From: Cellulophaga sp. 20_2_10
Lineage (GTDB): Bacteria; Bacteroidota; Bacteroidia; Flavobacteriales; Flavobacteriaceae
DNA length: 64,000 nt
Assembly (NCBI RefSeq): GCF_023476645.1
Contig: NZ_JAMCOJ010000001.1
Span: 496,001-560,000 of the forward strand
Direction of reading: 5' to 3'
This document shows, piece by piece, positions 2,224-6,075 of the stretch (positions are counted from its first letter, which is position 1; every line of letters starts with the position of its first letter). The position numbers were made by a program, and so were the translations under genes. The notes under the pieces were generated by a model. That model was not told where the DNA came from. It was given only the letters and a program-made list of their open reading frames with translations, and ran no database searches.

Positions 2224-3561
2224 ATGAAAAATTTAAAAAGAGTTTTACTTGTTTTGTTTGTAGTTGTAATTGTAGCTGTAGTTTACAATTACCCTAAATT
2301 AAATATGATTTCTGGCTATGCAGCTAAAAATATGGCGTCTAATGTTTTTATTGCTGATAGATCTGCGGAAGATGTTACTGCGGTAGACAACAATGTACCA
2401 TTAATAAAACTAGCCGATTCTAAAGTAGATAAAGAATCTAAGAATGCTAGCTCATCAGTTTTTGGCTTAATGACGCGTAAAGCCGTTTATAGAGATGGTT
2501 TGGGAGCTGTTTTAGTTAATGATAATTACGATCCAACTAAATTTACGTTACAACCACATAGAGATTTTACAAAAACTGGTTTGCCTTTTCCTTATGGTGA
2601 TAAAGAGCAAAAGGACACTGTTTTTTCTACTATAGATTATACTGCTTTACAAAAAGCTATGGACCAAGGTTTCTCTAACCCAGATATTCAAAAAACAAGA
2701 AGTACAATTGTTATTTATAAAGATCAGATTATTGCAGAAAATTATGCAGGTGGCTTTACGGCCGATACTAAAATTTTAGGTTGGTCTATGACAAAAAGTA
2801 TTGTGTCTACTTTATATGGAATATTACAGTGTAACGGAAAATTAAACGTGAACCAACTTGCTCCTATTCCTGAGTGGCAAAACGATGACAGAAAAAACAT
2901 TACCTACAACCACTTACTGCGTATGCAAAGTGGTCTAGAGTGGGATGAAAATTATACTGAAATATCTGATGCTACTAAAATGCTTTTTTTAGAGTCTGAT
3001 ATGACACTGGTACAACAGAACAAAGAAGCTATAGCTAAACCAACAGAAATCTGGAATTACTCTTCTGGCACCTCTAACCTATTGTCTGGTTTACTAAAAA
3101 AGAACTTTAAAACACACCAGGAGTATTTAGACTTCCCTTATACTAGTTTAATAGATAAAATAGGAATGCACTCTATGCTAATTGAAGCAGATATGGAAGG
3201 CAACTACGTAGGTTCTTCTTACGGATGGGCAACTACTAGAGATTGGGCTAAATTTGGATTACTGTACCTACACAAAGGAAACTGGAACGGAGATAGAGTT
3301 TTTGATGCAGACTGGGTAGATTATGTAGCAAAACCTACTGCACACTCAGACGGTACTTATGGAGGGCATTTTTGGCTAAATGCAGAAGGTAGGTTCCCTG
3401 ATGTTCCTAGAGATATGTATTACGCCAGCGGATACCAAGGGCAGTATGTATTTGTAATTCCTTCTAAAGACTTAGTTGTTGTTAGAACTGGCTTGGCTAC
3501 CTATCCTATTTTTGATTTAAATGGATTTTTAGGTGGTATTGTAAAGGCTATTGAAGATTAA
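2224..3561 (+). CDS. Membrane-anchored serine hydrolase, beta-lactamase family (class C fold)
   Basis: 445 aa from the ATG at 2224; a longer frame from a TTG at 2197 starts inside the -7 box and is rejected. A single hydrophobic helix at residues 6-22 without a clear cleavage site suggests an N-terminal anchor with the domain in the periplasm. The nucleophile motif SMTK is at Ser188-Lys191. The second motif is in NYSSGTSN, and GGHFWLN near the C-terminus fills the place of the third (KTG-like) motif. The YSSG form is typical of the 6-aminohexanoate-dimer hydrolase/esterase branch of PF00144 rather than true beta-lactamases. Substrate unknown; an esterase, amidase or D-amino peptidase is possible. 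Confidence 0.85.
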   Translation: MKNLKRVLLVLFVVVIVAVVYNYPKLNMISGYAAKNMASNVFIADRSAEDVTAVDNNVPLIKLADSKVDKESKNASSSVFGLMTRKAVYRDGLGAVLVNDNYDPTKFTLQPHRDFTKTGLPFPYGDKEQKDTVFSTIDYTALQKAMDQGFSNPDIQKTRSTIVIYKDQIIAENYAGGFTADTKILGWSMTKSIVSTLYGILQCNGKLNVNQLAPIPEWQNDDRKNITYNHLLRMQSGLEWDENYTEISDATKMLFLESDMTLVQQNKEAIAKPTEIWNYSSGTSNLLSGLLKKNFKTHQEYLDFPYTSLIDKIGMHSMLIEADMEGNYVGSSYGWATTRDWAKFGLLYLHKGNWNGDRVFDADWVDYVAKPTAHSDGTYGGHFWLNAEGRFPDVPRDMYYASGYQGQYVFVIPSKDLVVVRTGLATYPIFDLNGFLGGIVKAIED

Positions 3562-3686
3562 TAAGGTACACCTAAGTAAACAGACACACATAAGAACTAC
3601 AACATAGTTATCTACAGTAACCACATATTAGAACACATTGACAACATAAAGTTTTTTATACCTTATACTCGCTATATATTAGTGGT

Positions 3687-3768
3687 ATAGTTAGTTAGAA
3701 TAAAGATTTTCATTTTCATATAGTGTTCTCGTAAAAAGAGCCTTGTCTTTGTCGACAAGGCTCTTTTT
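3687..3768 (+). ncRNA. Predicted small RNA, copy A (about 82 nt)
   Basis: The 5' end is set from the -7-like box TATATTAG (3675-3682), itself 17 bases after a T6 tract that sits at the -33 position. The RNA has an unpaired, U-rich 35-base block (3706-3740) and ends in a 15-bp hairpin, AAAAAGAGCCTTGTC with GACAAGGCTCTTTTT (3733-3747 and 3754-3768), a good intrinsic terminator. A palindrome CGCTA-TATAT-TAGTG (3670-3684) with outer pairs ATAC/GTAT overlaps the -7 box; it is either an operator or, if transcription starts earlier, a 5' hairpin. I know of no named family that this matches. Confidence 0.5.
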
Positions 3769-3951
3769 CATTTTAGAAACTTTTTGTCTCATGTATGAAG
3801 GGCGTGTTATTACATAAATTAATACAACCATAATAGAATAAAAATAGAGCTAAAAAAAGCATTACAACAGAAACACCTTACATCACCACAAATAAGAAAC
3901 ACTTTACAACATATAGTTTTTAAAATTAAAGAAGCGCTATATATTAGCGGT

Positions 3952-4033
3952 ATAGTTAGTTAGATTAAAAATTTTCATTTTCATATAGTGTTCTCGTAAA
4001 AAGAGTCTTGTTTTTGTCGACAAGACTCTTTTT
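3952..4033 (+). ncRNA. Predicted small RNA, copy B (about 82 nt)
   Basis: Same layout as copy A: T5 tract, 18 bases, TATATTAG (3940-3947), the identical 35-base block (3971-4005), then a 14-bp terminator hairpin (3998-4011 with 4020-4033). Relative to copy A, one stem pair changed from C-G to T-A, keeping the pairing. The palindrome over the -7 box is a perfect CGCTA-TATAT-TAGCG (3935-3949). Confidence 0.5.
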
Positions 4034-4206
4034 CATTTTAGAAACTTTTTTTTGTAATCTATATCACTAGCCTTAGAATGGTGTTTTGCACTACTAAAAA
4101 CATATTTTAAAAACGCTAACAACAAAATAGCGTATACTCACAACAAATACGAGTTAGTTTACAACATTAAATTTTTAAAACCTTATAGTCACTCTATATT
4201 AGGAGT

Positions 4207-4289
4207 GTTATTAAATAAGAAATAAAATTTTCATTTTCATATAGTGTTCTCGTAAAAAGAGTCTTGTTTTTGCCGACAAGACTCTTTTT
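4207..4289 (+). ncRNA. Predicted small RNA, copy C (about 83 nt)
   Basis: Same layout: T5 tract, 18 bases, TATATTAG (4195-4202), the identical 35-base block (4227-4261) and a 14-bp terminator hairpin (4254-4267 with 4276-4289). The palindrome flanking the -7 box has a different sequence, CACTC (4190-4194) with GAGTG (4203-4207), but still pairs perfectly. The stretch between the -7 box and the 35-base block is the most diverged of the three copies. Confidence 0.5.
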
Positions 4290-4355
4290 CATTTTAGATC
4301 TTTACTATCCTAAAGTCTACTTCTTAGAAATACACCTCTCTGTAGTTCTGTAAAA

Positions 4356-4387
4356 CAAAAAAAGTGCTCAATTAAAATTGAACACTT
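4356..4387 (-). terminator. Terminator of the DEAD/DEAH helicase gene
   Basis: AAGTG-C-TCAATT pairs with AATTGA-A-CACTT (4362-4387) with one mismatch and is flanked on the minus strand by a T-rich tract (A-run at 4356-4361 on the plus strand). It begins about 25 bases past the stop at 4413 and separates the helicase from the triple repeat. Confidence 0.75.
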
Positions 4388-4412
4388 CTTTTTATATATA
4401 CAATCTATAAAA

Positions 4413-5966
4413 TTATTCTTCTGGCGGAAATCCGTGTATTTCTTCAAAAACTTGATCAAAATTTTCTCTTAAGTAAGCCGTTAACCTTTTCTTATAATCG
4501 TCTTTTAACCAACTTAAAAAGTTAAACGTACTTCTACTTATACATTTTGCATATACTTGTATACGGTAATCAATATCAACATCTAATAATTTAGCCAAAG
4601 CTAAAGCATCATAAACATCTTCACTGTTCTCTATACATATCTTTGCGTGCTGTTCTATAGATCTTTCTAAAACTACTTTAGAAGATTCTCCTCCAGATAC
4701 AGCGCTTATGTATGTTTCCTTTATATCAAAATATACTTCTTCCGATTTTTCAAATTCTTTACGAATTTCCTCTGGCATCTCGTGCTTAAAGGTACTTTCT
4801 ATATCTTCATCGTTCTTTAGACGATCCATATAGAAATTAGGATTACTAAAGATTGTTTGCCAATCTAAATCTGCTCCCCAAGGACCAAATCTATGGTAGT
4901 TATTACCTAAATCTATTACCGTAAATTTAGATTTATTATTTAAAATACGAGAACCACGACCTATCATCTGGTAATACAGGGTTAAAGACTTAGTTGCTCT
5001 GTTTAGTACAATAGTATCAATTGTTGGCTCATCAAAACCAGTAGTTAAAATACTTACAGATGTTAATATAGCATCTGGCGTTTCTTTAAACCACTTTAAT
5101 ATTTGTTTACGTTGTTTTTTTGTAGCTGTATTATCTAAATGCATTACAGGATACCCTGCATCTTTAAAGGTATAATAAACCTGTATAGAGGTATTAATAC
5201 CGTTGTTAAAGATAAGTGTCTTCTTATTTTTAGAATGCTCTTTATAAGCCTCCATTAACTTATCTAGCATTGCAGAACTAGAATATAAATCTTCAGAAGA
5301 CTTTACAGTATAATCACCATTAGAACCAATCTCTAAAGATGTTAAACCCATATTGTATTGATGAACATCTGCACGTGCTAAAAATTCGTTCTCTATAAGA
5401 GATCCAATACTTTCACCAGTAATTAATTCATCATAATTATCTTTCATTGGTAAGTTCTTGTTAGAACTTAAAGGTGTAGCTGTTACTCCTAAAACAAAAG
5501 AATTATCAAAAAATTTAAAAAGCTTTGTAAATGAATTGTAATGCGCCTCATCTATAATTACAAGACCAATATCAGAAATATCTAACATACCATCGTTTAA
5601 ACGATTGTTAAGTGTCTCTACCATTGCCACAAAACAGCCATACCTTTCTTGATCTTCTAAATTTGCTGTACTGTTTACTACTTTGTTAATTACCCCAAAA
5701 CTATCTAACATTTTAGATGTTTGGTTACAAAGTTCTACACGGTGAGTCATAATTAACACCTTCTTTTGATGGTGCTTTAGGTATTGCCTTACTATTTCAG
5801 AAAAAATAACTGTTTTACCACCACCTGTAGGTAATTGATAGAGTAAGTGATGATCATCTGGAGCTGTTTCAAAACGCTGAAAAATCTCATTTAGGGCTCC
5901 TCTCTGATAGTCATAAAGTTCCTTATCTGTCTTTTTTTCTTGTAATTCAAAAGCAGTCTTCGTCAT
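4413..5966 (-). CDS. DEAD/DEAH-box superfamily 2 helicase
   Basis: 517 aa from the ATG at 5966. A longer frame starts at 5999, but an exact TAnnTTTG box (5996-5989) lies between the two, and the ATG at 5966 has AAAGGA just upstream. Walker A is LPTGGGKT (45-52), motif II is DEAH (139-142), and the helicase C domain has the motif VI region YQMIGRGSR. The family (ResIII/UvrB-like helicase core plus helicase C) hydrolyses ATP to move on or unwind nucleic acid. The last about 130 residues are acidic and unassigned. It stands alone, not next to restriction or defence genes, so a housekeeping DNA or RNA role is likely. Confidence 0.85.
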   Translation of the reverse strand: MTKTAFELQEKKTDKELYDYQRGALNEIFQRFETAPDDHHLLYQLPTGGGKTVIFSEIVRQYLKHHQKKVLIMTHRVELCNQTSKMLDSFGVINKVVNSTANLEDQERYGCFVAMVETLNNRLNDGMLDISDIGLVIIDEAHYNSFTKLFKFFDNSFVLGVTATPLSSNKNLPMKDNYDELITGESIGSLIENEFLARADVHQYNMGLTSLEIGSNGDYTVKSSEDLYSSSAMLDKLMEAYKEHSKNKKTLIFNNGINTSIQVYYTFKDAGYPVMHLDNTATKKQRKQILKWFKETPDAILTSVSILTTGFDEPTIDTIVLNRATKSLTLYYQMIGRGSRILNNKSKFTVIDLGNNYHRFGPWGADLDWQTIFSNPNFYMDRLKNDEDIESTFKHEMPEEIRKEFEKSEEVYFDIKETYISAVSGGESSKVVLERSIEQHAKICIENSEDVYDALALAKLLDVDIDYRIQVYAKCISRSTFNFLSWLKDDYKKRLTAYLRENFDQVFEEIHGFPPEE

Positions 5967-5988
5967 AGTATCCTTTTCTGTTGGGGTG

Positions 5989-5996
5989 CAAAAATA
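5989..5996 (-). promoter_or_regulatory. -7 box of the helicase promoter
   Basis: The minus strand reads TATTTTTG, an exact TAnnTTTG, 22 bases before the ATG at 5966. It places the alternative ATG at 5999 upstream of the transcript start. Confidence 0.5.
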
Positions 5997-6075
5997 CATT
6001 CTTTAGTGCGTTTTACACGAATAAATAGGTAAAAAACTACTTATAATTTTTAAAAAAAGGAGTATGTCCCAAAAA

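Follow-up and report, generated by a model that had tools for sequence, protein, structure and literature searches.

The three tandem units described here probably belong to a family of trans-acting antisense small RNAs (sRNAs), about 82 nt long, that blocks translation of a surface CAP-domain lipoprotein. This is our best reading of a 64,000-nucleotide stretch of the Cellulophaga sp. 20_2_10 genome, referred to below as the window. Comparison of genomes shows a gene family with a terminator and a promoter box, its complementarity with the lipoprotein mRNA, and restriction of the pairing site, among the CAP genes tested, to genomes that carry the sRNA. From these features we infer transcription, duplex formation in the cell and, as the outcome, repression.

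The units occupy an intergenic gap of 851 nt (3562-4412) between the genes for a serine hydrolase and a helicase, and no open reading frame of 60 aa is found in this gap. They are direct repeats, named copies A, B and C, with start-to-start distances of 265 and 256 nt, which bears out a preliminary description of three tandem units in a gap of about 850 bases. Each unit has a TATATTAG box, shares a 35-nt block with the other two and ends in a perfect intrinsic terminator. The block, ATTTTCATTTTCATATAGTGTTCTCGTAAAAAGAG, starts at 3706, 3971 and 4227 and is identical in the three copies. The hairpin arms are 15 nt long in copy A (3733-3747/3754-3768) and 14 nt long in copies B (3998-4011/4020-4033) and C (4254-4267/4276-4289); all are perfect and have a T run at the end. 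The identical block and the perfect terminators had both been reported before and are confirmed in the sequence, and so is the reported stem-pair change, from C-G in copy A to T-A in copies B and C, which leaves the pair intact. Measured against copy B over 90 nt, identity is 94% for copy A and 91% for copy C. Copies A and B also resemble each other over about 80 nt upstream of their boxes (82% over 194 nt). The earlier statement that the DNA between the units has diverged thus applies to most of the spacers, but not to this upstream stretch.

In flavobacterial sigma-A promoters the box is located at -12 to -5, as given in the cited part of PMC9723704. The predicted RNA was taken from the start set by this position through the end of the T run. 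This reproduced the lengths of 82-83 nt proposed previously with the -7-like box as guide (82, 82 and 83 nt for A, B and C). A generic promoter and terminator scan scored one of the three terminators, that of copy C, and no promoter of the E. coli type at any unit, as expected because the box is of the TAnnTTTG type. The units are not a chance arrangement, since the middle copy retrieves the six others in the genome at E 1e-34 to 9e-18 and the family is genus-wide. The features are listed in Table 1.

Table 1. Features of the three-unit locus, its neighbors and the sRNA loci of the assembly (window positions, except where contig C1 is named)
Feature	Position	Strand	Basis
Beta-lactamase-family serine hydrolase, upstream neighbor	2224..3561	+	PF00144 (2242-3561)
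-7-like promoter box TATATTAG, copy A	3675..3682	+	sequence; family-wide box statistics
Predicted sRNA copy A, 82 nt	3687..3768	+	box at -12..-5 to T-run end (PMC9723704, cited part)
Conserved core (putative seed), copy A, TTTTCATTTTCATATAGTGTTCTCG	3707..3731	+	sequence and family alignment
Intrinsic terminator, copy A	3733..3768	+	hairpin; covariation
-7-like box TATATTAG, copy B	3940..3947	+	sequence; family-wide box statistics
Predicted sRNA copy B, 82 nt	3952..4033	+	same basis as copy A
Conserved core (putative seed), copy B	3972..3996	+	sequence and family alignment
Intrinsic terminator, copy B	3998..4033	+	hairpin; covariation
-7-like box TATATTAG, copy C	4195..4202	+	sequence; family-wide box statistics
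Predicted sRNA copy C, 83 nt	4207..4289	+	same basis as copy A
Conserved core (putative seed), copy C	4228..4252	+	sequence and family alignment
Intrinsic terminator, copy C	4254..4289	+	hairpin; covariation; generic scan
ResIII/DEAD-type helicase, downstream neighbor	4413..5999	-	PF04851, PF00271
sRNA loci in the assembly	window trio (window = C1:496001-560000); second trio C1:802500-803170; single copy C1:214195		

The Cellulophaga sp. 20_2_10 assembly contains seven copies at three loci, and all 17 other genomes of the genus examined gave matches at E 1e-11 or better. Among 299 evenly drawn Flavobacteriaceae genomes, 52 contain the core with at most two mismatches, and the reversed-pattern control gave none. 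Three genomes with one lone two-mismatch match (G033, G130 and G332) were set aside. The block first noted in the window is thus not confined to it: by core match at up to two mismatches, the core is present in 49 of the 299 genomes, from 42 genera. A draw of 296 genomes from the order included 246 from other families, none of which has the core. Scanning named genomes for the exact 22-mer returned at least 120 stretches. Among the matches listed are Maribacter, Allomuricauda/Flagellimonas, Zobellia, Arenibacter, Robiginitalea and Eudoraea, as well as Muriicola, Kriegella, Croceitalea, Pseudozobellia, Saonia and Lentiprolixibacter. One locus (L048, G006:C7:69583-74804) packs six copies into about 5 kb, and five of the six form an array evenly spaced at about 225 nt. 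Another (L143, G097:C640:56063-56687) holds three tandem copies in which the sequence is altered right after or at the core end; this trio is a diverged lineage of the sRNA family.

No Rfam family (Rfam 15) matched at gathering score in the window or at the sRNA copies of 15 loci. All 32 sub-threshold matches were below the gathering scores and were taken as chance, and a tRNA/tmRNA search found none. At L150:863-899, Rfam matches the S16-Flavobacteria ribosomal-protein leader. Several copies and tandem arrays could also arise if the units were a mobile repeat, such as a REP-like element, spread by transposition. This origin is hardly credible: the 299-genome scan found only one to seven core matches per genome, one locus is syntenic across genera, and no match at E 0.01 was found in 50,697 phage and 72,556 plasmid records, nor any exact 22-mer in viral contigs.

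The structure of the units is preserved across the family. Forty aligned copies agree in every letter over 24 consecutive columns, partly by construction because some copies were fetched by the exact 22-mer. Among the matches listed, 16 carry a mismatch over 22 nt; six of these 16 are CAP start sites and not copies, and one exact match listed (G166:C11:437331) is also a CAP start. In 182 of 195 places the core is preceded, at a distance of 25-52 nt, by a TAnnTTTG-like box, versus 10% of shuffles. The preliminary description had proposed a covariance model across Flavobacteriia, and the terminator stems do covary. Double changes are seen in 10 of 13 stem pairs (4.2 in shuffles), the covariation score is 0.383 versus 0.225, and 96.9% of the cells in the stem are paired despite sequence change. 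There are 199 core-bearing places, including one target site (L142) that is not a copy. Over 194 of them, five being left out of this computation, the terminator region has a mean energy of -18.6 kcal/mol, compared to -7.6 kcal/mol for shuffles. The core is predicted to be only partly unpaired in the free RNA, with a mean of 0.54 and values above 0.8 in 5 of the 194. A three-codon frame in the core (GTG TTC TCG TAA) is broken in several copies and was rejected.

Genes near the core follow a recurrent pattern. Sixty-seven of the 199 core-bearing places sit downstream of a serine hydrolase gene on the same strand, and 53 of these 67 are also within 2.5 kb of menB (assigned by NCBIfam) on the opposite strand. 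Because this context recurs across genera, one sRNA locus is old and syntenic. The menB gene of the window's genome adjoins the single sRNA copy (L038) rather than the window trio. The position just downstream of the hydrolase would also suit terminators or attenuators of adjacent genes that are not separate RNAs. We consider this very unlikely, since up to 102 of the 199 places lack all four marker genes within 2.5 kb (at most this number, as the sequence of some loci stops close to the copy), promoter-like boxes precede the units, and a terminator does not need a near-invariant 24-nt core ahead of a freely changing stem. The box, the core, the covarying terminator, the intergenic location and the occurrence in 42 genera instead argue for a multi-copy small-RNA gene, as was first suggested for the window.

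Analysis of the core revealed complementarity to the translation start of a CAP-domain gene. In Lentiprolixibacter (L142), the gene for a CAP-domain protein (PF00188) has the core complement at its start codon, over 23 nt and with no mismatch. We read the N-terminus of this protein as a lipoprotein-type signal. A second CAP start with the core complement is found in genome G028 (L241). The target pattern DNNGAACACTATATGAA, in which the D shuts out the sRNA itself, was written after these two sites were already known and was scanned over the 299 genomes. It produced 22 matches versus 5 for the reversed control, and 5 of the 22 are variant sRNA copies. Of the other 17 sites, eight coincide precisely with the start codon of a homolog of the L142 protein (tblastn E 1e-41 or better). 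Each of the eight comes from a different genus and from a genome that carries the sRNA; seven of the sites are new and one (G028) was known before.

The CAP gene is present in 203 of the 299 genomes, and every one of the 49 sRNA-bearing genomes has it. The analysis of CAP starts covered 48 of these 49 (G097 was left out) and, as controls, 22 of the 154 CAP-bearing genomes without the sRNA. A start-site duplex of -18 kcal/mol or lower is predicted in 39 of the 48 sRNA-bearing genomes versus none of the 22 controls, a contrast that is not independent of descent because the sRNA-bearing genomes are related and the control CAP genes are more distant. The duplex reaches -20 kcal/mol in 36 of the 48. 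Two of the 39 are borderline (G224, -18.2; G204, -18.1, on an inner ATG). Values for the other nine sRNA-bearing genomes range from -11.1 to -5.6, and the best control gives -14.1. Among 672 other gene starts of the clade, which were scored at the first ATG whereas CAP genes were scored at the best of several, none reaches -20 and 24 reach -15. Of the other CAP paralogs of the sRNA-bearing clade, 2 of 35 reach -15, and of CAP genes from genomes without the sRNA, 0 of 23 do; these values were regarded as background.

Sequence conservation was analyzed in the 38 site-bearing CAP genes. Between genera, mRNA identity is 0.27-0.36 upstream of -14, 0.72 at -10 to -1 and 0.83 in codons 1-4, and it falls to about 0.5 beyond them, which places the conservation peak at -10 to +12. 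Transitions compatible with wobble pairing occur at 0.154 per site and incompatible ones at 0.042, a 3.7-fold excess that is inflated by the selection of the 38 loci on pairing energy; in addition, the genomes are related and do not count as independent samples. Taken by itself, the leader (-14 to -1) has a mean pairing energy of -9.3 versus -2.7 for the background, and it falls in the best 1% of the background in 14 of the 38 genes and in 0 of the 22 controls.

The serine hydrolase adjacent to the sRNA was also considered as a target and rejected, since its homologs pair poorly as a group. The best of 45 listed homologs reaches -15.3, and the window's own -11.9; one homolog outside the 45 (L065) pairs at -18.7, the best of the 672 background starts. 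In genome G169, which has five core matches, GAACACTAT immediately precedes the start codon of a reading frame that encodes at least 501 aa and begins with a signal-like sequence (L267, G169:C5:92380). This frame is possibly a second target.

Complementarity to a translation start is thus conserved in 39 of the 48 sRNA-bearing genomes, but not at the CAP gene of the window's genome, whose two CAP genes are without the pairing site. The window's species group was represented by five genomes in a search with AGAACACTATATGAA at up to one mismatch. The window's genome showed no site outside the sRNAs, and the other four had no site at a CAP start. With the 21-mer complement at up to three mismatches, the window's genome yields one place in addition to the seven sRNA copies, at the start of a TPR protein of 1007 aa (TPR by Pfam). 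Each of five close relatives has the 16-mer CTATATGAAAATGAAA once outside the sRNAs, and it lies at this start. There, 17 nt pair perfectly in 5 of 5 genomes at -19.3 kcal/mol, beating 672 of 672 other clade starts, although the site proves little because close relatives share the leader anyway. The start of a DUF748-like protein (domain match below the Pfam cut-off) pairs at -15.9 kcal/mol. Both starts are candidate targets only. Many of the weak BLAST matches to the core in the window's genome and its relatives fall within genes or away from any start, and these were dropped.

Nine of the 48 genomes, including the window's, keep the core without a CAP site, so CAP cannot be the core's only use, and the same argument indicates that something besides CAP constrains the core in the window's genome. 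The intact seed there must have another use, for which the TPR-protein mRNA is perhaps a candidate. These genomes, the pairing at the TPR and DUF748-like starts, and a conserved core of 24 nt, which exceeds the usual seed length, are also what would be expected if the sRNAs are real and the core mainly binds an RNA-binding protein or many weak mRNAs, with CAP as one of many or a by-product. We regard this as an appreciable possibility, somewhat short of even. At the CAP sites, however, conservation peaks in an island whose length roughly matches that of the pairing, and the TPR leader is alike in close relatives anyway. In addition, the two RNA-binding profiles covered, RRM_1 (PF00076) and Hfq (PF17209), have no match in the window's genome; among 14 controls they matched 2 (Bacteroides ihuae and Synechococcus) and 5, respectively.

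In the antisense mechanism that we favor, the three units would be paralogous genes for a free-standing trans-acting sRNA, each with its own housekeeping-like promoter box and ending at an intrinsic terminator. The 24-nt core, UUUUCAUUUUCAUAUAGUGUUCUC, would serve as the seed. Its predicted pairing partner, in most sampled family-bearing genomes, is the CAP mRNA, from about 10 nt ahead of the start codon through codon four (GAACACUAU followed by AUGAAAAUGA). A duplex over the start codon and the adjoining leader would keep the ribosome from starting. Initiation should fail once the start codon is covered, since these bacteria are not known to rely on Shine-Dalgarno pairing as their usual start signal. 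Our guess is that TACTTAC, shortly upstream of the CAP start, is the gene's -7 box; a loose motif of this type is found in 23 of 39 leaders. With this box, the CAP leader would be about 10 nt long and wholly covered by the pairing. A broader proposal is speculative, and we think it rather unlikely as a whole: a clade-wide antisense RNA working without Hfq or RRM proteins, with the core kept near letter-perfect by almost complete pairing, microRNA-like or greater, with the leader and start region of a surface-lipoprotein mRNA, and re-aimed at other AUGAAAAUGA-type starts where the site is lost.

To our knowledge, only a small number of base-pairing sRNAs have been described in Bacteroidota, and those studied in most depth are from gut species (compare PMC11697453). 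A search of openly licensed PMC papers, with the core letters among the queries, found no paper on this sRNA family. The CAP-lipoprotein target of this sequence-defined family of marine flavobacteria is newly proposed here, from genome comparison, and the conserved mRNA site is directly testable. The family opens the study of antisense translation control where no Hfq is found and Shine-Dalgarno pairing is not known to be the usual signal, and raises the question of why several near-identical copies are kept.

LhrC, Qrr and OmrA/B come from other phyla and have other sequences and targets. They resemble the flavobacterial family in having several copies with one common pairing region, and differ from it in that pairing here is near-perfect, up to 23 nt, and no Hfq, which Hfq-dependent siblings would require in the host, was found. 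They are among the sibling sRNAs named in the cited part of PMC11697453. Rfp18 of Flavobacterium psychrophilum is likewise a conserved flavobacterial sRNA; it is conserved within the genus, and its loss alters the mRNA levels of two metalloproteases. It is set apart by description, not by sequence, as its targets are different and the cited part of PMC9723704 describes no multi-copy family.

FopS of Bacteroides thetaiotaomicron is a paralogous sRNA family with housekeeping promoters and a 5' seed followed by an intrinsic terminator. It pairs near the start codon, blocks translation, targets SusC transporters, and is bound and antagonized by the RRM-1 protein RbpB (PMC11697453, cited part). We do not file the present family as FopS, because no RbpB-type protein was found and the conserved target found here is a CAP lipoprotein rather than SusC; the comparison with FopS is one of description, not of seed letters. 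On that level, and short of demonstrated membership, the family would work like FopS. Both are multi-copy paralogous sRNA families of Bacteroidota, and the present one would share with FopS a housekeeping-type promoter, a terminator and a putative seed predicted to pair near a start codon. In the window's genome, seven copies at three loci have a common seed, and each window copy has the terminator after a core that is predicted to be partly single-stranded (family mean 0.54 unpaired).
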